Below are positions 2,069-39,106 of a DNA stretch of 39,286 bases, piece by piece. The stretch covers positions 1 through 39,286 of the IMG/VR virus record IMGVR_UViG_3300008267_000121. The stretch is one strand, 5' to 3'. The DNA is from a virus. The translations under genes and the position numbers were made by a program. The notes below the pieces were generated by a model, which was given only the letters and a program-made list of their open reading frames with translations, made no database searches and was not told where the DNA came from. Positions within the stretch are counted from its first letter, which is position 1; each line of letters begins with the position of its first letter.

Positions 2069-2476
2069 ATGAAAGATAATCTTCTCAGGAAAGAGACTTC
2101 TAATAATGGTACCGTCAGGTATTTTCTAGACGATGAACTTCATCGAGAAGATGGTCCAGCCGTAGAATATGCAAATGGCTCTAACATGTGGTACGTTTAC
2201 GGTGAACGTCATAGAGAAGATGGTCCAGCCGTAGAATTTTCAGATGGCGAAAGGCGTTGGTATCGTCACGGTAATCTTCATCGAGAAAATGGTCCTGCCG
2301 TAGAGTTTCCGGCTGGAATCAAATATTGGTATTTAAATGATAAGCCGCACCGAGAAGATGGTCCAGCTGTAGAATATACAAATGGCTCTAAGTGGTGGTA
2401 CTATGACGGAGAGTACATTGAATGTTCATCCCAAGAGGAATTTAAGAAGTTAATTAAATTAAAAATTCTATGGTAA
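2069..2476 (+). CDS. MORN-like repeat protein, four repeats
   Basis: The 135-aa protein is built from about four ~23-aa repeats of the form HREDGPA(V)E(Y/F)xxGxxxWYxxG, followed by a short tail. This is the MORN-variant (MORN_2/YwqK-like) repeat, common in large phages and giant viruses, where it forms a beta-rich stack. No enzymatic role is known. It is the first of three tandem paralogues, with a fourth at 22782. It shares its start context (GGTAAAG, then ATGAAAGATAATCT) with the next gene, which shows recent duplication. Confidence 0.85.
   Translation: MKDNLLRKETSNNGTVRYFLDDELHREDGPAVEYANGSNMWYVYGERHREDGPAVEFSDGERRWYRHGNLHRENGPAVEFPAGIKYWYLNDKPHREDGPAVEYTNGSKWWYYDGEYIECSSQEEFKKLIKLKILW
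2141..2391 (+). repeat. Near-identical DNA repeat units inside the MORN-like gene
   Basis: The 44 bases at 2141-2184 recur at 2348-2391 with only a few substitutions. Each encodes one HREDGPAVEY unit followed by TNG or ANG. Such close DNA identity within a gene points to recent repeat expansion. Confidence 0.7.
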
Positions 2477-2517
2477 TTTTATGAGCAATTCTTACGCTAG
2501 AGTAGTTTGGTAAAGTC

Positions 2518-2787
2518 ATGAAAGATAATCTACCGGAAAAAGAAATTGATATTCATGGTACCATAAGCTATCGCTTAAATGGCAAATTCCATAGAGAAGA
2601 TGGTCCAGCCAAGAAATTTATTTCAGGAACCGAGTTTTGGTTAGTAGATGGTAATTATCATAGAATGGATGGTCCTGCCGTCAGTTATGCAAATGGATAT
2701 CAAGAATGGTGGATTCTTGGAAGAAGATTGAGTTGTAGAAATCAGGATGAATTTGAAAGACTAATTAAGCTAAGATCTTTGTGGTAG
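2518..2787 (+). CDS. MORN-like repeat protein, two repeats
   Basis: This 89-aa paralogue of the preceding gene has two clear repeats (FHREDGPA and YHRMDGPA) and the same tail, ending ...QDEFERLIKLRSLW. The start region is almost identical to that of its upstream neighbour. It appears to be a shortened duplicate. The function is unknown and the repeats form a beta structure. Confidence 0.8.
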   Translation: MKDNLPEKEIDIHGTISYRLNGKFHREDGPAKKFISGTEFWLVDGNYHRMDGPAVSYANGYQEWWILGRRLSCRNQDEFERLIKLRSLW

Positions 2788-2811
2788 CTCTCGGAACAAA
2801 ACAGATTTATT

Positions 2812-3084
2812 ATGAGCGACGATTTAATTATTAAAGAGATTGACGAAGAGGGCATCGTTAGATACTATCTTAATGGTGAGTTACATAGATTAGATGGTCC
2901 TGCCGAAGAACATCCTAATGGTGATAGATGGTGGTACATTGATGGTAGACTTCATCGAGAAGATGGTCCAGCTTTAGAATATGTCCAAGATGGATATTCC
3001 TACTGGTACTACGATGGGTTTTTGCTAGACGTTTCTTCTCAGGAAGAATTCGAAAGATTCTTAAAGCTAAGGTTTCTCCTCTGA
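2812..3084 (+). CDS. MORN-like repeat protein, two repeats
   Basis: This is the third tandem MORN-like protein, 90 aa, with repeats LHRLDGPA and LHREDGPA and the conserved tail SSQEEFERFLKLRFLL. It is 24 bases from its upstream paralogue. The shared tail in all three suggests a common ending domain or docking helix. The function is unknown. Confidence 0.8.
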   Translation: MSDDLIIKEIDEEGIVRYYLNGELHRLDGPAEEHPNGDRWWYIDGRLHREDGPALEYVQDGYSYWYYDGFLLDVSSQEEFERFLKLRFLL

Positions 3085-4809: not shown

Positions 4810-4866
4810 TAAGCCATTTATCAGCTAATAATTTAATAATTTATTATGAAAAGCATAAATGGCTTA
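4810..4866 (+). promoter_or_regulatory. 12-bp hairpin holding the transglycosylase start codon
   Basis: TAAGCCATTTAT (4810-4821) pairs perfectly with ATAAATGGCTTA (4855-4866). The 33-base loop contains the ATG at 4846 and a CTAATAA box ending 14 bases before it. The 3' arm is coding sequence. There is no Shine-Dalgarno sequence. A transcript starting inside the loop would lack the 5' arm and be open for translation. Confidence 0.6.
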
Positions 4867-5562
4867 TTAAAATTAGCACAAGACTTTGAAACTAAATCTT
4901 CTGATAAAAAAGAAACAATTGCTGCGGTTCCCGGAATAGAAAGAACAACTCCTGAATTTAGAAAAAAGTTATTACAAATTTGTAATAACTTAGGAACCAA
5001 TGCTGATTGGATTGCTGCAGTTATGTCCAATGAAACCAAGCAAACATTTAGTCCTCAAATTTCTGGAGGAAAAACACCAACTACTGGCGCTGTAGGTTTA
5101 ATACAATTCATGCCATTCACAGCTGCCAAGCTGTTTGGCTTTAAGGAGCCAATTGAAGGTAAGGCTACTCAAGCTGAATGGAAAGCTTGGAGTAAAGCCT
5201 GCAAAGAATCTAGACAAAAAATGTCTGAAATGGATGCTGTAAGTCAATTAGATTATGTTGAAAAGTTTTATTCCCCCTATAAAGGTAGACTAAAATCTTT
5301 AGAGGACGTTTACATGGTAGCATTTTTACCGGATACGGTTGGTAAACCATCGCCCATAGCCGCAGAGAAGGATTCAAAAAATCCTTATTTGGCAAGCGTT
5401 TATAGATCAAACCCCAGCTTTGATCCAAATAAAACAGGAGTTATACTTAAAAGTCAAGTTGCAGCTTCCGCTCAATCAGCTTTAAATGCTGCTAAGGGAA
5501 AAAGAATATCCGTTAACGATGACACCATCTACGACTCAAGGAGTCAAAATATTAAAAAATAA
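4846..5562 (+). CDS. Lytic transglycosylase-like (lysozyme-fold) protein
   Basis: The 238-aa protein has the layout of a soluble lytic transglycosylase. The segment DWIAAVMSNET puts a candidate catalytic Glu at residue 63, and TTGAVGLIQFMP (about 79-90) is the family's G-L-x-Q-F/M-M-P motif. Such enzymes cleave peptidoglycan between MurNAc and GlcNAc. In phages they often ride in the virion and open the wall during DNA entry. The N-terminus (INGLLKLAQDF) resembles that of the family A proteins, and like them the gene lacks a Shine-Dalgarno sequence and starts in a hairpin. Flanking genes belong to family C. The lytic role is well supported by motifs, the virion location is inferred. Confidence 0.75.
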   Translation: MKSINGLLKLAQDFETKSSDKKETIAAVPGIERTTPEFRKKLLQICNNLGTNADWIAAVMSNETKQTFSPQISGGKTPTTGAVGLIQFMPFTAAKLFGFKEPIEGKATQAEWKAWSKACKESRQKMSEMDAVSQLDYVEKFYSPYKGRLKSLEDVYMVAFLPDTVGKPSPIAAEKDSKNPYLASVYRSNPSFDPNKTGVILKSQVAASAQSALNAAKGKRISVNDDTIYDSRSQNIKK

Positions 5563-6762: not shown

Positions 6763-7050
6763 ATGAATTTCAATCTTGATCCCGAAGCCGATATTAATGG
6801 AACCAGCTTTCACAATCTCGTTATCAATGAGAATTATCACAATCTAGTAAAGATGCTAGGAGATCCTCATGTAGAAAATTATCCAGAGGACAAAATTAGG
6901 TATGAGTGGTATTTTACTTCCGAAGATGGAAGTGGAATTGCCCTTTATGATTGGAAGCAGCACTCCAATTCTCCAAAGACTTGGAACATTGGAAGTAGAA
7001 GCAAGGAGTCTGCACTTCAATTTAAGGAATGGTTTTATCGTAATTTCTAG
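6763..7050 (+). CDS. Hypothetical protein, 95 aa
   Basis: The protein begins MNFNLDPEADI and has aromatic-rich segments (IRYEWYF, FKEWFYRNF). It follows promoter copy B with a good AAGGAG ribosome site. Its stop overlaps the end of a reverse-strand gene by 4 bases. The gene after promoter copy C (18415) also begins with an FNLD segment, but the similarity goes no further. The function is unknown. Confidence 0.7.
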   Translation: MNFNLDPEADINGTSFHNLVINENYHNLVKMLGDPHVENYPEDKIRYEWYFTSEDGSGIALYDWKQHSNSPKTWNIGSRSKESALQFKEWFYRNF

Positions 7051-8351
7051 TATTTAGATCTTTTTGCCTTCCAATATAATTCATAATTAATAAAAGAGGC
7101 AATTTGATTTAAATCATCTTGCAATATAAACTTTGCCCTATATGTTTTAAATAAACTTGTAATAGATTCTTTTATATCTTTTAAAGAATTGCATTTATTA
7201 TCATATGCAACTTCCGTTAAGATATGATTAAATGCCCTTCTACTACCAGTATCGCTGCACATTAAATACAGCGTGATATAATCTTCAATTAAATTATCTT
7301 GTATATTTAGAGGCTCTCCAATTTTAAAATCATAAAAATCTTCCGGAGAGAAGGCAACATATTCTATGCGCTTTCTTTTTATATTTTCTTTATAATCATC
7401 TACCCCTGCAGCTGATGGATTGTCATACAAAGATTGAATTATGCTGTATAGTTGATTTTTTTCTTTTTTAAAAAAATTAATAATCTTTTGAGCAATTATT
7501 GCCTCTTTAGATTTATCGCTATCTATTCTGGATGATATGTTGTTCATAGCTGCCCAATACGAACTCTCATTTACTTTGGGGGGGATAATAGAGCCATCTT
7601 CATCTTTAACGGCAATTTCCGTATCTGGATTGAATTTATATCTACGAAGCACATTTAATGGCTTAGTAGATGTTTGAGGTCTTTCATCTTCAATAATTGA
7701 ATCTTCTTTTTCTTCAATGGTGGCAATTTTAGTTGCATTGACTAAAGTTTTGGGGTTCCAAAAACAACCGCCATCTACATCAAATGCATCAATAAATCTC
7801 ATATGATATGAGAACTTTTTTTCTTCTGGCTGCAATTTTACATTTTTAGCATTAATTAATTTTATTTTTTCTTTAATTTCTCTAAGGTTAGGTATCTCGA
7901 TTCCATCATAGTCTTTTTTAAATTTAGACCAATTTACATTGGTTCCAATTGGTTTATTATAGCCAATACCATAGAGATATCTATCATTCATTTTCTTTTC
8001 AAGAGAATATTCTTCGCAGTATTTTTTAGTAAACTCCTCTAAATTATCAGCAGTAAGTTTAAATACCCTACTCTCATTTAAATTTAGAATATAAACATCA
8101 CCTGAAGAAAATGAAAAAAAGTCTAGCCACTGCCTACCAAAAGCATAATAAAAACCAGATGGCTTATTATTGTTAATAGAGGCATTTTCATCGGAAGATA
8201 ATATAAATTTTCCCATATCAAATTTCATATGGGATACATTAATCCTATCAGTAGGTCTAATGGAAATAGCTATCTTTTTTAAAAAATCTTGAGTTAGAAA
8301 TCTTTGAGCTGTTTGTTTAAATATTTTAGCAAAAGAATAAAGATTGTGCAT
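7047..8351 (-). CDS. 434-aa protein resembling a phage/giant-virus family of unknown function
   Basis: The N-terminal half carries an ordered set of motifs: GFYYAFGRQWLDFF, then YILNLNESRVFKLT followed by EEFTKKY, then NWSKFKKDYDGIEIP, and FDVDGGCFWNP. From memory these match a family in large phages and mimivirus-like viruses (W-Y-S-x-G...W-L-D...Y-D-G-I-E-I...S-G-C-I-W-N), possibly of ADP-ribosyltransferase-like fold; I cannot confirm this. The C-terminal half (about 270-434) is helical and lysine-rich. It runs against its neighbours. A TAATAA box lies 14 bases before the ATG in a weak TATTTT/AAAATA stem, as in the family A genes. There is no Shine-Dalgarno sequence. It may be a late or virion protein. 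Confidence 0.65.
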   Translation of the reverse strand: MHNLYSFAKIFKQTAQRFLTQDFLKKIAISIRPTDRINVSHMKFDMGKFILSSDENASINNNKPSGFYYAFGRQWLDFFSFSSGDVYILNLNESRVFKLTADNLEEFTKKYCEEYSLEKKMNDRYLYGIGYNKPIGTNVNWSKFKKDYDGIEIPNLREIKEKIKLINAKNVKLQPEEKKFSYHMRFIDAFDVDGGCFWNPKTLVNATKIATIEEKEDSIIEDERPQTSTKPLNVLRRYKFNPDTEIAVKDEDGSIIPPKVNESSYWAAMNNISSRIDSDKSKEAIIAQKIINFFKKEKNQLYSIIQSLYDNPSAAGVDDYKENIKRKRIEYVAFSPEDFYDFKIGEPLNIQDNLIEDYITLYLMCSDTGSRRAFNHILTEVAYDNKCNSLKDIKESITSLFKTYRAKFILQDDLNQIASFINYELYWKAKRSKY

Positions 8352-8384
8352 AGAGCTATTTTAAATTATTAGTAAAAAATATTT

Positions 8385-11120: not shown

Positions 11121-11172
11121 GGGTACAATGTCACTATATCACATTATTATGTAATAATAAGACATTGTATCT
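11121..11172 (+). promoter_or_regulatory. Hairpin directly before the A1 start codon
   Basis: GGGTACAATGTC (11121-11132) pairs with GACATTGTATCT (11161-11172), 12 bp with two G-T pairs. An inner ATTATT/AATAAT stem sits at 11143-11158. The ATG at 11173 follows immediately. TAATAA at 11155-11160 lies 12 bases before the ATG. There is no Shine-Dalgarno sequence. Confidence 0.55.
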
Positions 11173-12744
11173 ATGCGTTACAGTACGGAGTTTTCTTATA
11201 TATTTAATTTATTAAAATCTGCTGCCAGAGATATTCCAGAATTTTATCCAGATTGGGTAAAGAAAGATCCTATCTTAAAAAGATATGATCTTCTTTCTGA
11301 AATAAAAAAAGAAATACCCGTAGATGATTATAGAGAAAAAATAGATAAAGCTCTAATTGATGAAGATTCAATTGAGGTAGATGTAAAGGGTAATCTCCGA
11401 ACCTACCTTGGAGATATTGCTTCTGATGTTAGAAATCTTGAAAAGAGTTTAACTTCATTGGCAGGCTTTGATAAATCAGACGCTGAAAAGCATAAAATGC
11501 TTCTTTGCTTAGCCGAGCTAAGTGATAAGCTTTATCATTCTTTATTAAATGAAGAACTGATACATTATTTTTACTTAGCAATAATGCAGGGGGAATCTTT
11601 ATCTAATGCTCTTAAATTTCCATCCGAGCTAAGATCAGAGCAATTCTTTGTTAGAAATCCAAAAGCCATAAAAGAAGAAGATAGGTTAATATCTAGAACC
11701 GCAAAGATAGAGCCTAACATTCCTATAATAAGTGCCATAAAGGCATTTGCAACAGAAGTTAAAAGGTTAGTTAAAGACCCGGCTTTTGCGTCAAGGACTA
11801 TAGAGAATTTATCTTCTAGCAAAGTTTCAACTGCTTATGATAAATTAGCTTTTTTCAGTAGCAAATTCTTAAGCTGGTATTCAGCTTCTGAGGATCTTGA
11901 AATAGTATTTAGCAAAAAGCCATCAGACATTCTCTCCATGAGCATTAGAGAAGAATGGGCTTCTTGCCAAGATCTTTTAAAGGAAAAAGATGAGTATAAT
12001 TTTAGAGCAATTAATTCGGCAGTCTCTCCTTATTGCTCTATTATTTATTTGACCAACGGTCAAGTGCATAAAAAAATTGGAGAGAAGATGATTGCTAGGT
12101 GCCTAGTTCTATTTTTAGAATCGGATTATGAAGATCCACCTATACTTCATGTTTGTAAGGTATATTCCAATCATCCAAATAAAGAAAAAATAAGAAAACT
12201 TTTTATAGAAAATTTACAAAAATATTCCGCGATTAAAGTTGATGGCGGTAAGTTAGCTTATAATGGAGAATATAGCTTTCCGGCATTAGATCCATTGGAA
12301 GGAAGTTCTTCTTTTATAGGTAATAGATTACCTTATTTCGATCCCAACCCAGAAGGATCGAAAGCTGATAAAATTAGCTCTATCTCTCCGAGATTTTATT
12401 CCGATACCAGATTTAGCGAACATGCTAAAAAATTAAATGAATATATGCTTGAGTTCTATGAGTCTATAGCAGATGAAGATTTTTCATTGTCTCATAGCTA
12501 TTGCAATGCAACTTTAAATGCCATAGCAAAGCTTAATCCAATGATTCCAATGACTCAAGTTATTAACGGTAAATCTTGCTCCTTAGGAGAATTAGTTACA
12601 AAACTAAAAGGTCTTTTATACTTAGGTGGAGATTCGGCTCCATCTTCCCCAATGGAAAGAGATCGGGGAATGAAGCTCTTTTATGAGGAGTTTCAAAAAT
12701 GGGAGCCATCTAGGTTGCCCACTCAGCTTTCTTTTAATTTTTAA
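11173..12744 (+). CDS. Family A protein A1, 523 aa
   Basis: This is the first of four tandem paralogues of unknown function. The N-terminus is FSYIFNLLKSAARDIPEFYP followed by DWVK and IKKEIPVDDYRE. A variable helical middle follows. A conserved domain starts at about residue 243 with EIVFSKKPSDILSMSIR and has W-x-S-C-Q with Cys265, SPYCSIIYLTN, GEKMIARCLV and YNGEYSFPA. The C-terminal ~120 residues end LPTQLSFNF. The S-x-R-x-x-W-x-S-C motif resembles one I recall from uncharacterised phage proteins (M-S-T-x-R-x-W-T-S-C-M), so Cys265 is a candidate functional residue. No Shine-Dalgarno sequence is present and a hairpin abuts the ATG. It may be a late, virion-borne protein. Confidence 0.8.
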   Translation: MRYSTEFSYIFNLLKSAARDIPEFYPDWVKKDPILKRYDLLSEIKKEIPVDDYREKIDKALIDEDSIEVDVKGNLRTYLGDIASDVRNLEKSLTSLAGFDKSDAEKHKMLLCLAELSDKLYHSLLNEELIHYFYLAIMQGESLSNALKFPSELRSEQFFVRNPKAIKEEDRLISRTAKIEPNIPIISAIKAFATEVKRLVKDPAFASRTIENLSSSKVSTAYDKLAFFSSKFLSWYSASEDLEIVFSKKPSDILSMSIREEWASCQDLLKEKDEYNFRAINSAVSPYCSIIYLTNGQVHKKIGEKMIARCLVLFLESDYEDPPILHVCKVYSNHPNKEKIRKLFIENLQKYSAIKVDGGKLAYNGEYSFPALDPLEGSSSFIGNRLPYFDPNPEGSKADKISSISPRFYSDTRFSEHAKKLNEYMLEFYESIADEDFSLSHSYCNATLNAIAKLNPMIPMTQVINGKSCSLGELVTKLKGLLYLGGDSAPSSPMERDRGMKLFYEEFQKWEPSRLPTQLSFNF

Positions 12745-12756
12745 AAATATATTAAT

Positions 12757-12793
12757 AATTCTGTATCAAAAACATGTACCACAATACAGAATT
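12757..12793 (+). promoter_or_regulatory. Hairpin with the A2 start codon in its loop
   Basis: AATTCTGTAT (12757-12766) pairs with ATACAGAATT (12784-12793). The 17-base loop contains the ATG at 12774. TAATAA at 12753-12758 ends 15 bases before the ATG, so a transcript starting ~7 bases after it would lose most of the 5' arm. Confidence 0.6.
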
Positions 12794-14363
12794 TTCTTAT
12801 ATATTTAATTTATTAAAATCCGCCGCTAGGGATGTTCCAGATTTCTACCCAGATTGGGTAAGAAATTATTCCCATTTAAATAGATATGACTCTCTTAGGC
12901 AAATAAAAAAAGAAATTCCAGTTAAAGATTACCGAGAGCAAGTTCCAAGTATAACTAACACTTCAGAATATATTCACTCTAAAATATTAGAAGACATTAT
13001 TACTTTTAAATATGATTTAGCTTCTCTTTTAAGAGTTTTAAAAATCTTCTTTAATGACGAGAGGCACAAGCTAATAGAGAAAGTAATAGATGGAAAAGTA
13101 GAAACAGTAGAAAAATCTGAGAGAGAAAAAGATGCCATTGAAAAAATGCGCTCTATGTGCGAGCGTTTAGAGTACGCATTATATCGTTCTTCTTGGGAAA
13201 AGAAAGTTCAATCTGATATTCTTCTTGGAAAGACTTTATCTCAAGCTCTTCAATTAGAAGAGTCTATTATTTCTAAGCCCTTTGAAGTTGAAACTCCTGT
13301 AGGAATTAAGGAAAAAATATTAACTTTTCCAGCAGGCGTTAACATAGTTAGTGTAATTAGATCTTTTTTAACTGAATGCAAAAGAATATCTAAAAACATA
13401 AACTATGACAATGAAACTGTAAAAAGTCTTAATGATCTGTCAAGAACGCCCGCTTATGAAACTTTGAATTATAGCTGCAGTAGATTATTAAACATGAGCA
13501 AGTCGTCTGACTCTGATATGGAAATTGTGTTTAGTAAGCAACCAACTGATCTTCTTTCTATGAGCATTAGAGACGATTGGAGATCTTGTCAATACTTATT
13601 ATCTAGTAAAGATAAATATAATTATAAAGCAATTCACTCAACTATCTCTCCTTACTGTGCAATTATGTATTTGACAAATAAGGAAGATTATGATGGAATG
13701 GGTGAAAGAATGCTTGCCAGAGCATTGGTTCTTTTCCTAGAGTCAGATGATGATAAGGAGCCAATACTTCTTGTCAGTCAGATATATTCAAATTATTCTA
13801 TTGAAGTTAAAAATAAAATAAAATCTATCTTTGTAGAAAGCTTGCAGAGACATAGTCCTTTAAAAGTTGACAATGGCGATTTGGCTTTTAATGGAGACTA
13901 TAGCTTCCCAGCCTATGAAACTTCCAATAGCCCATCAGAAATGGTCCCTTATTTAGATCCAAGAACGGATCGAGGAGAGGTTGAAAGGCTTCCTATTAAA
14001 TGGAAAAGGGGCGAAAAATATGATAGAGAGGCAAGAAGAATAAATGCCTGCCTAGATCATTTTACCGATTCGTTTTCCGAAATGGAAAACTATGATTCAT
14101 ATTACGATGATGACGTTCCAATTGATCAAGAATCTTGCAATCTAATGCTTCAAGAATTAGAAAGGTTCGATCCAAAATTTCCAATGATTTGGAGAGGTGG
14201 TAGCGTTCCTAGTCCTTTAAAGAAAGTTCTGGAAGAAATGGAGCAATTTGTTTTAGATTCTAATTACGAAGAATTTTACAGATCTGTCTCTGGGTGGAGA
14301 GCCTCTCCCTTACCAATTCAATTAAGCTTTGAATTTGTTAATGAGTATGAAAATAATGATTAG
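12774..14363 (+). CDS. Family A protein A2, 529 aa
   Basis: This paralogue of A1 has N-terminal YNTEFSYIFNLLKSAARDVP and then IKKEIPVKDYREQ. The middle shares a KPFEVETPVGIK segment with A4. The core domain starts at about residue 250 with EIVFSKQPTDLLSMSIR and has W-R-S-C-Q with Cys272, SPYCAIMYLTN and FNGDYSFPAYE. The C-terminal region is shared with A1, ending LPIQLSFEF plus a short acidic tail. It starts 29 bases after A1. The start codon is in a hairpin loop and there is no Shine-Dalgarno sequence. The function is unknown. Confidence 0.8.
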   Translation: MYHNTEFSYIFNLLKSAARDVPDFYPDWVRNYSHLNRYDSLRQIKKEIPVKDYREQVPSITNTSEYIHSKILEDIITFKYDLASLLRVLKIFFNDERHKLIEKVIDGKVETVEKSEREKDAIEKMRSMCERLEYALYRSSWEKKVQSDILLGKTLSQALQLEESIISKPFEVETPVGIKEKILTFPAGVNIVSVIRSFLTECKRISKNINYDNETVKSLNDLSRTPAYETLNYSCSRLLNMSKSSDSDMEIVFSKQPTDLLSMSIRDDWRSCQYLLSSKDKYNYKAIHSTISPYCAIMYLTNKEDYDGMGERMLARALVLFLESDDDKEPILLVSQIYSNYSIEVKNKIKSIFVESLQRHSPLKVDNGDLAFNGDYSFPAYETSNSPSEMVPYLDPRTDRGEVERLPIKWKRGEKYDREARRINACLDHFTDSFSEMENYDSYYDDDVPIDQESCNLMLQELERFDPKFPMIWRGGSVPSPLKKVLEEMEQFVLDSNYEEFYRSVSGWRASPLPIQLSFEFVNEYENND

Positions 14364-14373
14364 CTATACTAAT

Positions 14374-14409
14374 AACTCTGTATTCGATTATGCATTACAA
14401 TACAGAGTT
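14374..14409 (+). promoter_or_regulatory. Hairpin with the A3 start codon in its loop
   Basis: AACTCTGTATT (14374-14384) pairs perfectly with AATACAGAGTT (14399-14409). The 14-base loop contains the ATG at 14390. Relative to A2, the 3' arm has GAG for GAA and the 5' arm has CTC for TTC, a compensatory pair. TAATAA at 14370-14375 ends 14 bases before the ATG. Confidence 0.65.
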
Positions 14410-15961
14410 TTCTTACATTTATAATTTATTAAAGTTAGCAGCTAAAGATGTTCCTGGATTTTATCCTAAATGGGTTAGAGAATTTCCCGATCTGGAACAA
14501 TACGAATCCCTTTCGGATATAAAAAAAGAAATCCCGGTAGAAGATTATAGAGAAGAAGTTGACCCTGCTTTTATGGAAGCCTTAAAGGCATCTGACCCGT
14601 CTACTTCTGAAATGTTAGGCACCAAGGTAAATGAGCTTATAAATGATTTAATTTATTACTTATCTCAATTTTCTAAAAAAATTGAAAATAGCAAAAAGAA
14701 AATTAAATCTAATCACCAAATGATGGATGCCTTTAAAGATCTAGCAAATCAATTAAAGAACACCTTATCTGAGGAAGGTGAAGATGGCTTTGCCATAACT
14801 AAACATATTTGCAATCAATTGTTTAATGGCAAGACCATGTCAAATTCTTTTAACCTTCCAAGAGATTTAGTTTCCCTGCCCTTTGATGCTCCAAGCGAGA
14901 AAAGCATTTCATTAATAAATGAAAAACTGGAGCAGTATAGAAATTCAAGTCTTCAAATGCAAGATAGGGAGAAGCTCATAAAAGACCTGTCAAGAATTGC
15001 CTTAAATCCTCATCTTAAAGCAAATATTAATTTTGGCAAGGCAACACTTTCATTTAAGCAATTTATTGAAAAGCTTCAAGAAAATATTAGCGAACTTTCT
15101 TCATATAATGAAGAGGACGAGCATTACACAGAATCATTATTTGATAGGATCGTTGATCTTGCCACTCCAGATTCAAATACCTCTGTTGTAAAAAGTATTA
15201 AAATTTCATCGGGAGCAAATCTTAATACCACAATTAAGTCAATTATTGAACAATATTTAGAATTATCGGGCGATGTAGATTCAGTATCTACAAGGCACTT
15301 AGCCGATATTAACTCTCTTGATTCTTTTAAAGAAGTTTGCGATTTTCATTCTTTTAAAATTTTATCTGTTAATCGTAAGCTTACCGATCAAAAATCCGAA
15401 GATTCGGCTCCTATAGGAGAAATAGTCTTTAGCAAGCAACCATCAGACTTACTTTCAATGAGTATTAGGGCTGATTGGACTTCCTGCCAAAATTTATTGA
15501 GACACGGCGACGAGATAACGTCAACAAATTATAAGGCAATAAATGCTGCCATTTCACCTTACTGCGCCGTAATTTACTTAACCAATAAAGAAGATTTTAA
15601 TAAGAAGGGCGAGTACATGCTTGCCAGGTCTTTAGTTATTTTGTTAGAATCTAACGAAGGTGGTGAGCCTATTTTGCACATTGGCAAGGTGTATACAAAT
15701 AGTACTCAGGGCGATAAGATTAGAGATCTGTTTGTAGAAAGTTTGCAAAAACGCAGCCCCATTAATGTTGATTCTGGTGGCCTTGAAAGCTTAGCCTATA
15801 GTGGAAAATATAGTTTCCCGGCATACGAAGAAGCTGTTTATCAGCACCCCAAAAATCCATCCAAGTATCGAGTACCTTATTTAGATTACATTGAGAGAGA
15901 TAACGGTCCCGATACGCCAAAGACTAAAGTAGAAATACCATTTAGGCATGAAAGAAAATAA
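14390..15961 (+). CDS. Family A protein A3, 523 aa, extended middle and short C-terminus
   Basis: The N-terminus (YNTEFSYIYNLLKLAAKDVP, then IKKEIPVEDYREE) and core domain match A1, A2 and A4. The core begins at about residue 344 with EIVFSKQPSDLLSMSIR and has W-T-S-C-Q with Cys366, SPYCAVIYLTN and YSGKYSFPAYE. The middle is ~100 residues longer than in its paralogues. The protein ends shortly after the core (EIPFRHERK), without the ~110-residue C-terminal region of A1, A2 and A4. The N-terminus and core are therefore the constant parts of the family. The function is unknown. Confidence 0.8.
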   Translation: MHYNTEFSYIYNLLKLAAKDVPGFYPKWVREFPDLEQYESLSDIKKEIPVEDYREEVDPAFMEALKASDPSTSEMLGTKVNELINDLIYYLSQFSKKIENSKKKIKSNHQMMDAFKDLANQLKNTLSEEGEDGFAITKHICNQLFNGKTMSNSFNLPRDLVSLPFDAPSEKSISLINEKLEQYRNSSLQMQDREKLIKDLSRIALNPHLKANINFGKATLSFKQFIEKLQENISELSSYNEEDEHYTESLFDRIVDLATPDSNTSVVKSIKISSGANLNTTIKSIIEQYLELSGDVDSVSTRHLADINSLDSFKEVCDFHSFKILSVNRKLTDQKSEDSAPIGEIVFSKQPSDLLSMSIRADWTSCQNLLRHGDEITSTNYKAINAAISPYCAVIYLTNKEDFNKKGEYMLARSLVILLESNEGGEPILHIGKVYTNSTQGDKIRDLFVESLQKRSPINVDSGGLESLAYSGKYSFPAYEEAVYQHPKNPSKYRVPYLDYIERDNGPDTPKTKVEIPFRHERK

Positions 15962-15977
15962 CTTTAGGCATAAATAA

Positions 15978-16002
15978 GTATTAAGTGCATGAAGTATAAT
16001 AC
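15978..16002 (+). promoter_or_regulatory. Hairpin with the A4 start codon in its loop
   Basis: GTATTA (15978-15983) pairs with TAATAC (15997-16002) around a 13-base loop holding the ATG at 15989. The box CATAAATAA (ending 15977) is next to the 5' arm and close to the T4 late-promoter consensus TATAAATA. The stem is shorter than in A2 and A3. Confidence 0.45.
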
Positions 16003-17536
16003 AGAATTTTCTTACATTTATAACTTATTAAAATCAGCAGCTAAAGATGTTCCTGACTTCTACCCAGATTGGGTAAGGGGATATCGTCAATTAGATAGAT
16101 ACGAATCATTATCTGATATAAAAAAAGAAATTCCAGTAGAGGATTATAGGGAAGAAACTGCTAATATTTACGATGAAGAGGATCTGCCAGCTATTGTTAA
16201 GGCGGCAGTTGGTTCTTTTACAGAACAGTGTTTGAGGCAGTTGACCACATTTGACATGCAAAATAATCAACTGATGCAGGAAGCTCTTGCCAATGGCGAA
16301 GAAAATAAAGTACAAATGTATAAGGCTTTTAGATTTGTATCAGCTAAATTAATACGCTTCTTAGTATCTTTAGATGCATTAAATTACTTTTCAAGTAAAA
16401 TAATGAATGGAGAAAATTTATCCTCTGCAATGTCTCTTGAAGAAGAGATTGTTAGCGCGCCCTTTACAGTAGAAACTCCGGTTGGTAAACAATCAAAAAC
16501 CATCAAAATTCAAAAAGACGTAAATTTAGTTAGTGTACTTAGAGCATTTTTAATTGATTATAAGAGGGCTGTAAAGGATGAGTACCAGGAAACTCCTTGC
16601 ATAGAAAAATTGTTAGATGTATCAAAGCTTGCCGAATATAGTAAACTAAACTATCTAACCAGTAGCTATCTAAGAAAAGATAGAAGTAGCTTTCCTAAAA
16701 TGGATATTGTATTTTCCAAGCAGCCATCAGACTTACTTTCAATGTCTATTAGGGGAGATTGGACATCTTGCCAATATCTTTTAAGGGAAAAGGATAAGTA
16801 TAATTATAAGGCAATTCAATCTACCATTTCTCCTTATTGTGGAATTATTTACTTGACCTCTTCAAAGGATTATGGGGGAAGGGGTGAAGAAATGATTGCT
16901 AGATCTTTAGTTTTGTTGCTAGAAACTGACGATGGTCGAGAGCCTATTTTGCATGTCAGCAAGGTATATTCTAGCTATTTCGATAAGCAAAAAATAAAAA
17001 ACTTGTTCGTGAATAGTTTACAAAATCACAGTCCGTTAAAAGTTGACGATGGGGCACTTGCCTACAGCGGAGAATATAGCTTTCCGGCTTATGAAACTGA
17101 GCATAGTCCATCTGGAATGGTTCCATATTTAGATCCTCAGCCACATAAAGAATTGTATAATGAGTTCAATTATCTTCCGGTAAAGCGAGAAAGAGAAGAG
17201 AGGTTTTCTAAAGAGGCCAGAAAGTTTAATGCATATTTAGAAAATTTTTGCGAAAGGTATGATGGTATGCTAAAAGTAGAGCCATCTAAAGAGAATAGAA
17301 CTTTGGATTTAGGAATCGGATCGTGTGTACAATTTTTAGAAAGCCTTCATAGATTTGATCAGGGGCTAATAATCGTTGATGTTGTAAATGGACAACGATC
17401 TTCTTTACAAGAGTTTGCCCATAAATTATCACAAATTATAGACGATGTTGAAAACTCTTCTTCCGATTACGAAGCTAACAATGGTTTTATAAAATTCTAT
17501 GACACCCTGCTTCGTAACAAGGCGGCTCAGTTATAA
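15989..17536 (+). CDS. Family A protein A4, 515 aa
   Basis: This is the fourth tandem paralogue. It has YNTEFSYIYNLLKSAAKDVP and IKKEIPVEDYREE at the N-terminus and a middle with APFTVETPVGKQ shared with A2. The core has DIVFSKQPSDLLSMSIR, W-T-S-C-Q with Cys261, SPYCGIIYLT, GEEMIARSLV and YSGEYSFPAYE. The C-terminal region is related to A1 and A2 but ends differently (RNKAAQL). It is followed after 8 bases by family C gene C5. The function is unknown. Confidence 0.8.
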   Translation: MKYNTEFSYIYNLLKSAAKDVPDFYPDWVRGYRQLDRYESLSDIKKEIPVEDYREETANIYDEEDLPAIVKAAVGSFTEQCLRQLTTFDMQNNQLMQEALANGEENKVQMYKAFRFVSAKLIRFLVSLDALNYFSSKIMNGENLSSAMSLEEEIVSAPFTVETPVGKQSKTIKIQKDVNLVSVLRAFLIDYKRAVKDEYQETPCIEKLLDVSKLAEYSKLNYLTSSYLRKDRSSFPKMDIVFSKQPSDLLSMSIRGDWTSCQYLLREKDKYNYKAIQSTISPYCGIIYLTSSKDYGGRGEEMIARSLVLLLETDDGREPILHVSKVYSSYFDKQKIKNLFVNSLQNHSPLKVDDGALAYSGEYSFPAYETEHSPSGMVPYLDPQPHKELYNEFNYLPVKREREERFSKEARKFNAYLENFCERYDGMLKVEPSKENRTLDLGIGSCVQFLESLHRFDQGLIIVDVVNGQRSSLQEFAHKLSQIIDDVENSSSDYEANNGFIKFYDTLLRNKAAQL

Positions 17537-20205: not shown

Positions 20206-21144
20206 CTAGAGAAGATTTTTTCTTTTAAGCGCCCTTAGTAATTTTTTAACTGAAATTTGATAAATTTCTAAATCATCTTCAGAATTAATATTATTAAGCA
20301 TTGATTTAAAATTAAAATCTGTATCCGCCACAACGCCATTCATTCCTACAAAGTCTTTAAAGAAGCTCTCCCTATTTTCCTCGGGAATTTGAGAAATCTT
20401 TTTCTTAAACCTAGAGATTGAATCTATTAACCTTGGATGAGTTTCTATTAATCTAAATTCGTGGGGCTGACCTCTAAATCCAGATGGATCAGCTCCACGA
20501 AAATCAAACTTTTGTTTCTTCTTTTTATTCTTTTTTGGTAAGCCGTAAGGTAAACTTTTCTTTGACGTGATGTATTGGCAATAGTGCCCTAGCTCATGGT
20601 CAATTGAATTATCGACAAAGATAAAGTATTTTTCTTTTTTGTTATCAAACTTTGACTTGTCGTTTAACTGCTCGTAAGTAAATGGAGCAAAGCCAATGGT
20701 AATTCTATTTAATTGACTCGAATAGTTTGCCCAACCAGAACTAGAAGGCATACCTAAGTTTAAAGTACAACTTAAATCGTTGTCAAAATTATCTGGAATT
20801 AAATTAGAGTTTTCCCAACCATCAAAATCTTTTTTCTTTACATTGATTTGTTCAGTCATTACACCTATCGCACAATCAATGTTAGAAAAATTTTCTATTC
20901 CATCGGTAGGAAAGTATTCTTTGGGATTAAAGTCACCTTCTTTTATTTTTTTATCTTTTGACTTAGCATCATTGAATAATCGCAAGATTGCATTTGCGTA
21001 TTGGTCAAATTGATTCTTGATTGCATTAGAGCACCTTTTTGATAACTTTTCTGGAACACTAAGAAATGCTCTTTTTAATAAAAAATTATTTGACAAGGTA
21101 TTGTAATTATCCACCAGGGATATTAATTTAGCTAAACTGACCAT
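20206..21144 (-). CDS. HELGH zinc metallopeptidase-like protein, 312 aa
   Basis: The protein carries HELGHYCQ at residues 183-190, the HExxH zinc motif with catalytic Glu184. A later PHEFRLIETHPRLID could supply a third ligand (E or H). Upstream strands (NRITIGFAP, KYFIFVDNSIDHE) fit the strand-helix context of gluzincin-type peptidases. The N-terminus is a hydrophobic/amphipathic helix without a clear signal peptide. It is on the reverse strand, converging on the SPL-like gene with a 2-base gap. An ATCAAT/ATTGAT hairpin ends 2 bases before its ATG. It may be a virion protease, but substrate and timing are unknown. Confidence 0.65.
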   Translation of the reverse strand: MVSLAKLISLVDNYNTLSNNFLLKRAFLSVPEKLSKRCSNAIKNQFDQYANAILRLFNDAKSKDKKIKEGDFNPKEYFPTDGIENFSNIDCAIGVMTEQINVKKKDFDGWENSNLIPDNFDNDLSCTLNLGMPSSSGWANYSSQLNRITIGFAPFTYEQLNDKSKFDNKKEKYFIFVDNSIDHELGHYCQYITSKKSLPYGLPKKNKKKKQKFDFRGADPSGFRGQPHEFRLIETHPRLIDSISRFKKKISQIPEENRESFFKDFVGMNGVVADTDFNFKSMLNNINSEDDLEIYQISVKKLLRALKRKNLL

Positions 21145-22781: not shown

Positions 22782-23216
22782 ATGGAAAAAGAAATCAAGT
22801 ATTACGATGGCAATGGAAAGTTGCATCGAGTTGATGGTCCAGCAGTAGTTTTTTCCACCACTAAAGAGTGGTGGATTCATGGGGTTAGACATAGAGAAGA
22901 TGGACCGGCTATAGAATTCGCTAATGGCGAAGGTCATTGGTACTGGAATGGAGAGTACCATAGAGAAGGTGGTCCAGCCATTAGTTATTCTAGTGGAGGT
23001 GAAGTTTGGTATTGTCATGGTAAAAGACACAGATTAGATGGACCAGCTTTTACTTCTTATAATGGAGATAAGCAATGGTTTCTTAATGGTAAGCTCCATA
23101 GAGTAGATGGACCAGCGGTAGAGGATGTTTCTGGTAATAAAAAATATTACCTAGATGGATTAGAGTATTCTTTGGAAGAATGGTCTAGAGTTAAGAAAAT
23201 TTATTTCTTAAAGTAG
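22782..23216 (+). CDS. MORN-like repeat protein, about five repeats
   Basis: This 144-aa paralogue of the 2069-3084 array lies 20 kb away. Repeats include LHRVDGPAV, RHREDGPAI, YHREGGPAI, RHRLDGPAF and LHRVDGPAV, each followed by a W-x-x-x-G or W-Y-x-x-G turn. The tail differs from the array copies (EEWSRVKKIYFLK). It follows the tRNA pair and has no clear Shine-Dalgarno sequence. The function is unknown. Confidence 0.8.
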   Translation: MEKEIKYYDGNGKLHRVDGPAVVFSTTKEWWIHGVRHREDGPAIEFANGEGHWYWNGEYHREGGPAISYSSGGEVWYCHGKRHRLDGPAFTSYNGDKQWFLNGKLHRVDGPAVEDVSGNKKYYLDGLEYSLEEWSRVKKIYFLK

Positions 23217-25322: not shown

Positions 25323-25360
25323 AAAGAGGGGTGGGGAACATAAATTTCCCACCCCTCTTT
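25323..25360 (+). terminator. Terminator after the helicase gene
   Basis: AAAGAGGGGTGGG pairs with CCCACCCCTCTTT and extends inward by G-T and two A-T pairs to 16 bp, with loop CATAAA. The 3' side runs into TTTCTTCTCT. It is one of the strongest hairpins in the window. Confidence 0.75.
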
Positions 25361-27146: not shown

Positions 27147-27253
27147 TTAACTTAATTTGTTTTTTTAATGGATTGCTTACTGGAACCCTTCTTGCCCTAG
27201 TAGGATCTTTTGCTATTATTAAAAATATTAATGGTGGTGGCAGGGGAGAGTAA
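27140..27253 (+). CDS. Membrane micropeptide, 37 aa
   Basis: The product MLINLICFFNGLLTGTLLAL, then VGSFAIIKN and a polar GGGRGE tail, is a single membrane helix with a short cytoplasmic end. It overlaps the preceding gene by 7 bases. It is one of four such micropeptides in the window. Confidence 0.5.
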   Translation: MLINLICFFNGLLTGTLLALVGSFAIIKNINGGGRGE

Positions 27254-27260
27254 TAAGTAA

Positions 27261-27301
27261 TAGTTTGTCATAAAGTTGAAGGAAAAATTTATGACAAACT
27301 A
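27261..27301 (+). promoter_or_regulatory. 14-bp hairpin masking the papain-like gene start
   Basis: TAGTTTGTCATAAA (27261-27274) pairs perfectly with TTTATGACAAACTA (27288-27301). The ATG (27291-27293) is inside the 3' arm, and the AAGGA ribosome site is in the 13-base loop. Initiation should be blocked until the stem opens or the 5' arm is missing from the transcript. Confidence 0.7.
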
Positions 27302-32495: not shown

Positions 32496-32516
32496 ATTAA
32501 CTTGTATGAGGTAGTT

Positions 32517-36280: not shown

Positions 36281-36321
36281 AATAATAAAGGTGCGGGTAT
36301 TTTACCCGCACCTTTATTATT
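36281..36321. terminator. Bidirectional terminator between convergent genes
   Basis: A 19-bp perfect stem, AATAATAAAGGTGCGGGTA with its complement, has a TTT loop. Both sides end in A/T-rich runs, so it can stop transcripts from the peptidase (+) and from A5 (-). Confidence 0.9.
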
Positions 36322-37629
36322 TTAAATATCCCACTCCTCTTCTTCTAGTTGGTCAGGATACTTATCTTCCGTATCAATTCCAACATCAAAATAAGGATGA
36401 ATTTTTAATTCTTTGGTGATAGGTGCCATTCCAGGAAAATAGCTACTGGTGACTTCTTCAGTTTCCATATTTTCCCCTATTGGAAAATAGTATCCTCCAC
36501 TATAAATTATGTCAGAATTACAAACCTTTATTGGAGAATGTTTCTGTAAGCTTTCTACAAACATTTTTTCTATATATGCTTTATTGTAATTAGAATATAC
36601 ACTGTGAACATTAATAATATATTCATTAGAGTCAATTTTATTCTTTGTTTTTTTCTTTAATAAAAAGACTAAGGATCTAGCCACCATTTCTTCTCCCCTT
36701 GTTTTATAATCTTTTTTATTGGTAAGATAAATTATTCCAACATATGGGGACACGGCAGAGTGAATGGCTCTGACATTATAAAAATCTTTTTCTTTTATTA
36801 GGCTCTGGCAAGAAGCCCATTGAGATCTGATACTCATGGAGAGTATATCTTTTCTTTCTTTGCTAAATACAATTTCAAAGTCATTTGGAGTGAGTGATTC
36901 AGATTGTTTCATGTGATTGCTAATAAAGAAATTTAAATCTTTATAAGCATCCTCTTCCGCAATTTCTTTAAATAAAGATGTCTCTTGCGCTAATGTAATG
37001 TTAGACTCTCCCAGCAATTTAAATAACTGATCAATTAAATTTGGAATCATTTTAAATACATTTACATTGCCCTCACACTTAATCGATCTGCGGCGGTATA
37101 TTCCATTGTCTTTTACCATAAAAAGATAGCTTTCTAAAGGCTCCATTAAGGTAATGGAGGACATCTTTCTTGTCTCCTTTAGCCTATTAGCTATTAAAGT
37201 CCTATAGTCATTTCTTATAAATTGACTTATCATTCTTCCAATCAAGTCAATGAATACGCTATATAAATTTATTTTCTGTTTTATATCGTCCGCTTCTTCT
37301 TCTGATTTAAAAGATTTTCCTTGCAATTTAATTTGCAAATTATCTTTTTCATTTATGAGGGAGGAAACTATACGCGACAACCTCGTAGACATTTCAGAGG
37401 TCAAGATTCGTACCTTCTCTAAAAGAAAAGGATCATAGCTCTTGAAAGAGTCCAAGTCAACAACTACGGGCTCACGATAATCTTCTATGGGAATATCCGT
37501 CTTTATATCAGATAAAGACTCATATTGTTTTAGCTTGGGGTGTTCTTTTACCCATTCCGGGTAGAAGTCAGGAATATCTTTGGCAGCTAATTTTAGTAAA
37601 TTGTATATGTAGTTAAAGCTTATTTTCAT
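36322..37629 (-). CDS. Family A protein A5, 435 aa, reverse strand
   Basis: This fifth family A member is ~19 kb from the array and inverted. The N-terminus FNYIYNLLKLAAKDIPDFYP and IKTDIPIEDYREP match A3 and A4. The core has FEIVFSKERKDILSMSIR, W-A-S-C-Q with Cys274, SPYVGIIYLTN (Val in place of the family Cys), GEEMVARSLV and YSGGYYFPIG. It lacks the C-terminal region of A1/A2 and ends acidic. It lies upstream of the lysozyme in genome order but is transcribed separately. No Shine-Dalgarno sequence is present and a hairpin ends 1 base before the ATG. The function is unknown. Confidence 0.8.
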   Translation of the reverse strand: MKISFNYIYNLLKLAAKDIPDFYPEWVKEHPKLKQYESLSDIKTDIPIEDYREPVVVDLDSFKSYDPFLLEKVRILTSEMSTRLSRIVSSLINEKDNLQIKLQGKSFKSEEEADDIKQKINLYSVFIDLIGRMISQFIRNDYRTLIANRLKETRKMSSITLMEPLESYLFMVKDNGIYRRRSIKCEGNVNVFKMIPNLIDQLFKLLGESNITLAQETSLFKEIAEEDAYKDLNFFISNHMKQSESLTPNDFEIVFSKERKDILSMSIRSQWASCQSLIKEKDFYNVRAIHSAVSPYVGIIYLTNKKDYKTRGEEMVARSLVFLLKKKTKNKIDSNEYIINVHSVYSNYNKAYIEKMFVESLQKHSPIKVCNSDIIYSGGYYFPIGENMETEEVTSSYFPGMAPITKELKIHPYFDVGIDTEDKYPDQLEEEEWDI

Positions 37630-37630
37630 A

Positions 37631-37682
37631 TATCTAATGCTTCATTATTAATAATTCGTATAAAAAATTTCCCTATTAGATA
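37631..37682 (-). promoter_or_regulatory. Hairpin directly before the A5 start codon
   Basis: On the reverse strand, TATCTAAT (37682-37675) pairs with ATTAGATA (37638-37631), which ends 1 base before the ATG. The loop holds an ATTATT/AATAAT inner stem and a TAATAA box 15 bases before the ATG, the same layout as A1. Confidence 0.5.
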
Positions 37683-37732
37683 CTATAGTAGATCTACTAC
37701 ACTCTCCCTACCATATGTCCCAAGAGTTTGTC

Positions 37733-38431: not shown

Positions 38432-38460
38432 TTGACTTGACCACCATCAATCATTATAAT
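38432..38460 (+). promoter_or_regulatory. Sigma-70-type promoter for the matrixin-like gene
   Basis: TTGACT (38432-38437), a 17-base spacer and a perfect TATAAT (38455-38460). The ATG at 38489 is 28 bases further. It is the best host-type promoter in the window. Confidence 0.85.
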
Positions 38461-38488
38461 CGCCTCAAAAAAATAAGAGGTGTTTATA

Positions 38489-39106
38489 ATGATTCATAAA
38501 ATGGCTCGCTTACTTGCAATTACTTTAATTTCTATTTCCCTGTTAACCACTTATTCTCCATCAGAAGCCCTTGCAAATATAGAATATAAATATTCTCATG
38601 GTCATATGTTAAAGTGGAATAGAGTTATGTTGAGCATTTGCCTTACGCCCGAGTCATATGAGTTACCTGGTATTTGGGAGGCTACAACTTTTGCTTCTGA
38701 TCTATGGAATACCGTTCCAAATGTACCGCATACTTTTGTAAAAGATCAAAACGATACGTATTGTGACATTTACATTAATTATAAATACTTACCTCCTAAT
38801 ATTAACCAAAATTTTCTAGCAGCTAATACAGTTAAGAGTTGGGATATGAACGGCGAGATCTATAAATCTTATATAGATTTTAATAGAAAATATGCTGGTA
38901 AATTTGGTTATGCAAAATTAAGCAAAAATCTTTATGATGTAAAAAGCATTATGGTTCATGAAATGGGTCATGCCTTTGGATTAGGAGGCGATGAAGAGAA
39001 TTCTAATAATGTAATGTATGAGTACACTTCTATGGGAGAAGCTTCTAGAAGAACTTTATCATCTGAAGATGTTAGCGCGCTTCAATATCTTTACCGTAAA
39101 GAATAA
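38489..39106 (+). CDS. Secreted matrixin-like zinc metalloprotease
   Basis: The 205-aa protein begins with a signal peptide (basic MIHKMAR, hydrophobic core LLAITLISISLL, ALA cleavage site near residue 29). The catalytic motif is HEMGHAFGLGGD (residues 157-168), and a Met-turn VMYEYTSMG follows at Met176. Matrixins have HExxHxxGxxH, with the third ligand at position 11. Here position 11 is Gly and an Asp is at position 12. Exported by the host Sec system, it would act in the periplasm or outside. The ATG at 38489 (GAGG 8 bases upstream) is preferred over a GTG three codons earlier. It has its own strong sigma-70 promoter, unlike the surrounding genes. Confidence 0.85.
   Translation: MIHKMARLLAITLISISLLTTYSPSEALANIEYKYSHGHMLKWNRVMLSICLTPESYELPGIWEATTFASDLWNTVPNVPHTFVKDQNDTYCDIYINYKYLPPNINQNFLAANTVKSWDMNGEIYKSYIDFNRKYAGKFGYAKLSKNLYDVKSIMVHEMGHAFGLGGDEENSNNVMYEYTSMGEASRRTLSSEDVSALQYLYRKE

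Follow-up and report, generated by a model that had tools for sequence, protein, structure and literature searches.

In a virus record from IMG/VR (IMGVR_UViG_3300008267_000121; linear, 39,286 bases), analysed here over its full length as "the window", several genes begin at hairpins that exceed what is found in shuffled sequence. The source is an unclassified large phage, and most of the genes in question belong to one protein family, called family A, which comprises four tandem genes (A1-A4, 11173-17536, + strand) and a fifth paralogue (A5, 36322-37629, - strand), with amino-acid identities to A2 of 34-47%. The hairpins are probably cis-acting translation silencers of the kind known from gene e of phage T4, each with an internal late promoter, although here the promoter box is a different one, the genes have no Shine-Dalgarno (SD) sequence and the leaders would be very short. 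The family A genes, their hairpins and their boxes are as follows, with box positions counted from the ATG.

11121-11132, + strand: 5' arm of the A1 hairpin, GGGTACAATGTC, a helix of 12-13 base pairs (bp) with two G-U pairs
11152-11160, + strand: A1 box, TAATAATAA, lying in the loop, with TAATAA at both -21 and -18
11161-11172, + strand: 3' arm of the A1 hairpin, GACATTGTATCT, ending immediately 5' of the ATG at 11173
11173-12744, + strand: A1, 523 amino acids
12753-12758, + strand: A2 box, TAATAA at -21
12757-12766, + strand: 5' arm of the A2 hairpin, AATTCTGTAT, 10 bp
12774-14363, + strand: A2, 529 amino acids
12784-12793, + strand: 3' arm of the A2 hairpin, ATACAGAATT, coding (codons N-T-E-F)
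14370-14375, + strand: A3 box, TAATAA at -20
14374-14384, + strand: 5' arm of the A3 hairpin, AACTCTGTATT, 11 bp
14390-15961, + strand: A3, 523 amino acids
14399-14409, + strand: 3' arm of the A3 hairpin, AATACAGAGTT, coding
15961-15971, + strand: alternative A4 5' arm, ACTTTAgGCAT, pairing imperfectly with 15985-15995, ATG included
15969-15976, + strand: A4 box, CATAAATA, at -20, matching the T4 late box TATAAATA at 7 of 8 positions
15978-15983 and 15997-16002, + strand: 6-bp A4 stem, GTATTA/TAATAC
15989-17536, + strand: A4, 515 amino acids
36322-37629, - strand: A5, 435 amino acids
37630-37638, - strand: 3' arm of the A5 hairpin, ATTAGATAT, ending immediately 5' of the ATG
37645-37650, - strand: A5 box, TAATAA at -21
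37675-37683, - strand: 5' arm of the A5 hairpin, GTATCTAAT, an A1-like 9-bp stem

All 67 starts in the window were scored by a single rule. Among contiguous helices whose 5' arm lay no further downstream than -8 and whose 3' arm overlapped -15 to +21, the best was compared with those of 400 dinucleotide shuffles of the gene's own leader, the coding part being kept fixed (p floor 0.0025). A1 and A2 reached this floor, as did a papain-like protease gene at 27291, followed by a putative transglycosylase gene at 4846 (p = 0.005), A3 (p = 0.022) and a gene at 38489 (p = 0.03). Values were higher at A5 (p = 0.067), A4 (p = 0.28) and a gene at 7047 (p = 0.92). The starts without a TAATAA box fit a uniform distribution of p (Kolmogorov-Smirnov p = 0.87), so the null is well behaved, and the box genes gave a combined p of 5.5e-6 and differed from the remaining starts (p = 0.0035). 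Five of the 67 starts had p ≤ 0.005. One of these, at 32502, was not counted as a candidate silencer, its helix being the likely terminator of the gene upstream.

The same test was applied to two control phages. It recovered all five of the known T4 hairpin genes that were examined (e, 49, segB, soc and I-TevII, p 0.0025-0.025), and 12 of 152 annotated T4 starts had p ≤ 0.005; none of 80 starts did in the AT-rich Staphylococcus phage K. A looser duplex test found A2, A4, 4846 and 27291 and missed A3 (p = 0.23), and the contiguous-helix test was preferred because it recovers the T4 genes. Minimum free energy (MFE) z-scores on a short segment missed A1, because its 5' arm falls outside the segment folded.

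An initial annotation of this DNA had described a 12-bp stem ending directly before the ATG of A1 and stems of 10, 11 and 6 bp with the ATG in the loop of A2, A3 and A4. The stems of A1, A2 and A3 are present as described and are significant. The 6-bp stem of A4 is visible in the sequence but is not the minimum-energy fold and yields no significant helix, and the alternative imperfect A4 stem scored in the duplex test only (p = 0.017), without support from contiguous helices. Start hairpins not covered by that annotation were found at 4846 and 27291, with a weaker one at 38489 and a borderline one at A5. They fall into two architectures: a stem that ends at the ATG with the box in its loop (A1, A5), and a loop that holds the ATG with a 3' arm in coding sequence (A2, A3, 4846). 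The arms of A1, A2/A3, A5, 4846 and 27291 are unrelated in sequence, and loop length ranges from 13 to more than 30 nucleotides (nt), which makes recognition by a common DNA-binding protein unlikely and leaves pairing over the start as the shared property.

Six genes (A1, A2, A3, A5, 4846 and 7047) have the TAATAA box at -21 or -20, and among the 67 starts each of the other upstream positions as far as -100 has it once at most, an excess with a Poisson probability of 1.7e-6, or 0.005 when paralogues are collapsed. A4 carries the variant cATAAATA at -20. The initial annotation had put such a box at the base of each structure; this does not hold throughout, since the box overlaps the 5' arm in A2 and A3, lies in the loop of A1 and has the form ATAAATA in A4. 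No box gene has an SD 4-mer, versus 31 of the 60 others (Fisher p = 0.013). The lack of an SD sequence in A1-A4, already pointed out in that annotation, is also seen in their anti-SD duplexes, which amount to about -1.3 to -2.0 kcal/mol against a mean of -4.6 kcal/mol for the other genes. The leaders of A2 and A3 share a single conserved non-coding block, the 14-nt TAATAAYTCTGTAT. A further SD-less gene (20206-21144, - strand) has ATAAATATAAAT about 20-32 nt 5' of its ATG and is possibly another member of the box class.

The features at starts outside family A are listed below.

4810-4821, + strand: 5' arm of the 4846 hairpin, TAAGCCATTTAT
4826-4831, + strand: 4846 box, TAATAA at -20, with a second copy at -12
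4846-5562, + strand: gene for a transglycosylase-like protein, without a Pfam hit, in which a GLIQFMP motif was read by eye
4855-4866, + strand: 3' arm of the 4846 hairpin, ATAAATGGCTTA, coding
8366-8371, - strand: TAATAA at -20 of the gene at 7047-8351
27251-27263, + strand: TAATAAGTAATAG, at the base of the 27291 hairpin
27261-27274, + strand: 5' arm of the 27291 hairpin, TAGTTTGTCATAAA, 14 perfect bp
27288-27301, + strand: 3' arm of the 27291 hairpin, TTTATGACAAACTA, including the ATG at 27291, with AAGGA in the loop
27291-28280, + strand: gene of the papain family (Peptidase_C1)
38449-38494, + strand: 11-bp hairpin, AATCATTATAA/TTATAATGATT, spanning the start (38489) of a gene for a matrixin-like metalloprotease

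The hairpins at 4846 and 27291 are unrelated in sequence to those of family A, and the one at 27291 (27251-27301) is the closest copy in the window of the T4 lysozyme arrangement. No box was recognised at the 38489 start. The gene at 7047-8351 (- strand) presents the converse case, with a box and no start hairpin.

The calculated cost of opening the -18 to +18 footprint in a long RNA was 19.3 kcal/mol for A1, 17.4 for 4846, 12.6 for A3 and 11.6 for A2, the last two being moderate, compared with 8.4 ± 3.3 kcal/mol for other starts in the window and 18.3 and 10.6 kcal/mol for T4 e and soc. In the predicted late RNAs of A1, A2, A3 and 4846 it fell to 1.6-4.3 kcal/mol. Such long RNAs could arise by read-through. 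On the + strand no credible terminator was found from the upstream SD genes to A1-A4, where the pattern search gave two weak matches inside coding sequence, and read-through from these co-directional genes is thus plausible. Gene 7047 has no co-directional gene within 11.8 kb upstream, so its box without a hairpin is what the read-through idea predicts, in this one case. The likely terminators of the phage lie at 36281-36321 and 25323-25360. The first, where two genes converge, has a stem of 19 bp and a loop of 3 nt and likely works in both directions.

These observations can be arranged into the following scheme. In RNA reading through from upstream genes, the leader would fold and hide the start codon or the ribosome footprint. 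A phage promoter with a -10-like TAATAA (or ATAAATA) at -20/-21 would lie within the hairpin or at its foot. If TAATAA is a -10 element, RNA should start near -9, and in A1-A5 and 4846 the 5' arm would be lost entirely or almost so. The box-driven RNA would then have an open start and a leader of about 8 nt with no SD sequence, and expression of these genes would be limited to the firing of their own, presumably late, promoters.

The initial annotation had already invoked the logic of T4 gene e. This is partly supported, since unrelated stems occur at a box of fixed position, the predicted RNA omits the 5' arm and five T4 genes score alike, but the arrangement is neither specific to family A nor uniform within it. 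T4 e, soc, 49, I-TevI/II/III, segB and Aeh1 mobE are hairpin-silenced late genes that follow the same logic (PMC3014915, PMC2988022). As in gene e (PMC3014915), a start hairpin on a long early RNA would contain the late box or boxes and the late RNA would lack the 5' arm, both RNAs being predicted here. Gene e differs in that its stem holds a strong SD sequence and its box is TATAAATA, at -34 and -21, whereas the box genes have TAATAA(T) and no SD sequence, a predicted leader of about 8 nt and, for the most part, membership in a paralogous family of unassigned function. The other T4 and Aeh1 genes are likewise late genes that early or middle transcripts also cover, and they have a sequestered start and a late promoter in or beside the hairpin (PMC2988022, PMC3014915), but they have SD-based starts, encode homing endonucleases, capsid proteins or nucleases and form no tandem paralogous array.

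Set against what defines the T4 e type, a stable helix over the start in read-through RNA is predicted for A1, A2, A3, 4846 and 27291, the -20/-21 box is geometrically placed for a putative promoter to remove the 5' arm, and co-directional SD genes, putatively early, lie upstream. The box of gp55-dependent T4 late promoters, TATAAATA, is not what these genes carry: TAATAA(T) is found in the six, and only the cATAAATA of A4 comes near, at the 7 of 8 positions noted above. Membership in the T4 class is partial: the helix fits, and the differences lie in the box, the missing SD sequence, the predicted 8-nt leader and the use across a paralogous array. A1 and A5 share with the split ribosome-binding sites of T4 genes 25 and 38 (PMC3014915) a hairpin that abuts the ATG, but those sites bring a distant SD sequence near the ATG, and in A1 and A5 no SD sequence was read immediately upstream of the stem. 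The split-site reading was rejected.

Other explanations of the box and the hairpins were weighed. TAATAA could be a real promoter with a short leader at which hairpins are mostly incidental, the A2/A3 block TAATAAYTCTGTAT complementing conserved codons by chance and the other stems being chance as well. That this block is the only non-coding one conserved between the two leaders would fit, as would the presence of the box without a strong stem in A4, A5 and 7047, and a short leader alone accounts for the fixed distance of the box. We nevertheless regard it as unlikely, given the unrelated stems of 12-14 bp at A1, 4846 and 27291, the combined p of the box genes while other starts look random, and the arms of A2 and A3, which differ by exactly one compensatory change, TTC/GAA to CTC/GAG (about 3% by chance, by our own estimate). 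Still less probable is a translational role for TAATAA, as an AU-rich ribosome or S1 site in place of the SD sequence, with the hairpins presenting or masking it. The box is fixed relative to the ATG and to nothing else, and the genes that have it lack an SD sequence, but it resembles a late -10 box (cATAAATA in A4; TATAAATA at -21 in T4 e), and with the hairpin present these starts would be among the least accessible.

The inverted repeats overlap or flank the box, as operators bound by a dimeric repressor over promoters might, but the arms vary from gene to gene, as do the spacers, whose length runs from 13 to more than 30 nt, so that no single protein would read them all, and the 3' arms of A2, A3 and 4846 are in coding sequence; this reading is very improbable and was rejected. 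The poorest candidate, also rejected, takes the hairpins for terminators or for 3'-end or processing signals of the upstream gene. Their location in short intergenic gaps of about 25-65 nt would suit this, but no terminator-type T run is present, the loops are at least 13 nt, 3' arms lie inside the next gene, and the likely terminators of the phage look quite different. An intrinsic terminator is marked by a G+C stem with a short loop and a T run after it, a combination not seen here.

The searches made for relatives returned none close enough for covariation. When the 11-23 kb part of the window was compared with 50,697 phage records at the nucleotide level, nothing matched, and protein searches with family A (INPHARED phages, plasmids, IMG/VR with several queries, and GTDB genome contigs) returned a single distant relative, IMGVR_UViG_3300016469_000499. 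No relatives were returned for the products of 4846, 7047 and 27291, and when IMG/VR was scanned for the pattern of the A2/A3 hairpins, eight sites matched, of which none was convincing as a family A gene start. The distant relative encodes two family A homologues, head-to-head, within a region that appears to hold structural genes (judged by eye to be terminase-, portal- and protease-like), and this context suggests a late virion role for family A. In the same start-helix test, hairpins were found over the starts of 3 of its genes out of 36 (starts 4964, 8045 and 31655, - strand, contig coordinates; 10-14 bp, each p = 0.0025), the one at 8045 with CAATAAT near its base and AAGGG in its loop. 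Boxes at -20/-21 stand before three of its genes, one of them a family A homologue.

Several observations weigh against hairpin silencing of the T4 e type in these genes. The hairpin of A4 is weak and that of A5 borderline, and the opening cost of A5, 5.9 kcal/mol, is under the average, so its start is not closed. Truncation at -9 opens any leader, and the late-RNA values are thus not independent evidence. The compensatory change between A2 and A3, which the initial annotation had noted and which is indeed present, is a single event in one pair of paralogues. Paralogues also supply part of the box excess, and the 27291 gene has an SD sequence, fitting T4 e and not the SD-less class. In the distant relative, neither family A homologue has a significant start hairpin, though one of the two has the box, and one of the three boxes lies within an upstream coding frame and may be there by chance.

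If late-gene silencing by a removable start hairpin does operate here, it would cease to be a T4 peculiarity, having arisen as well in a distant phage whose promoter box is a different one, and the genes under it would encode a protease, an enzyme acting on the cell wall and members of a protein family of which little is known functionally. The combination of very short SD-less leaders with hairpins suggests that one promoter position sets both the choice of start site and the removal of the hairpin. More tentatively, and with the odds somewhat against it, this lineage outside the described T4 relatives may possess a gene class defined by TAATAA 20-21 nt before the ATG, no SD sequence and a leader of about 8 nt, in which hairpins evolved separately wherever upstream transcription reads in; promoter truncation would then be a class-wide switch producing nearly leaderless late mRNAs. 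The shuffle test, having recovered five known T4 cases, could be applied to large phages for counting such switches.

Family A had no explanatory sequence match in Pfam, PHROG or PDB, and the matches that the predicted structure of A4 gave were of acetyltransferase (GNAT) type, weak (E about 0.01) and confined to one domain. Synonymous-site conservation was only slightly raised in the first 16 codons, which is not decisive. Elsewhere in the window, four genes at 2069-3084 and 22782-23216 encode HREDGPAV-type repeats, and the protein encoded at 19076-20203 matches spore photoproduct lyase (Pfam SPL, E 3e-18).

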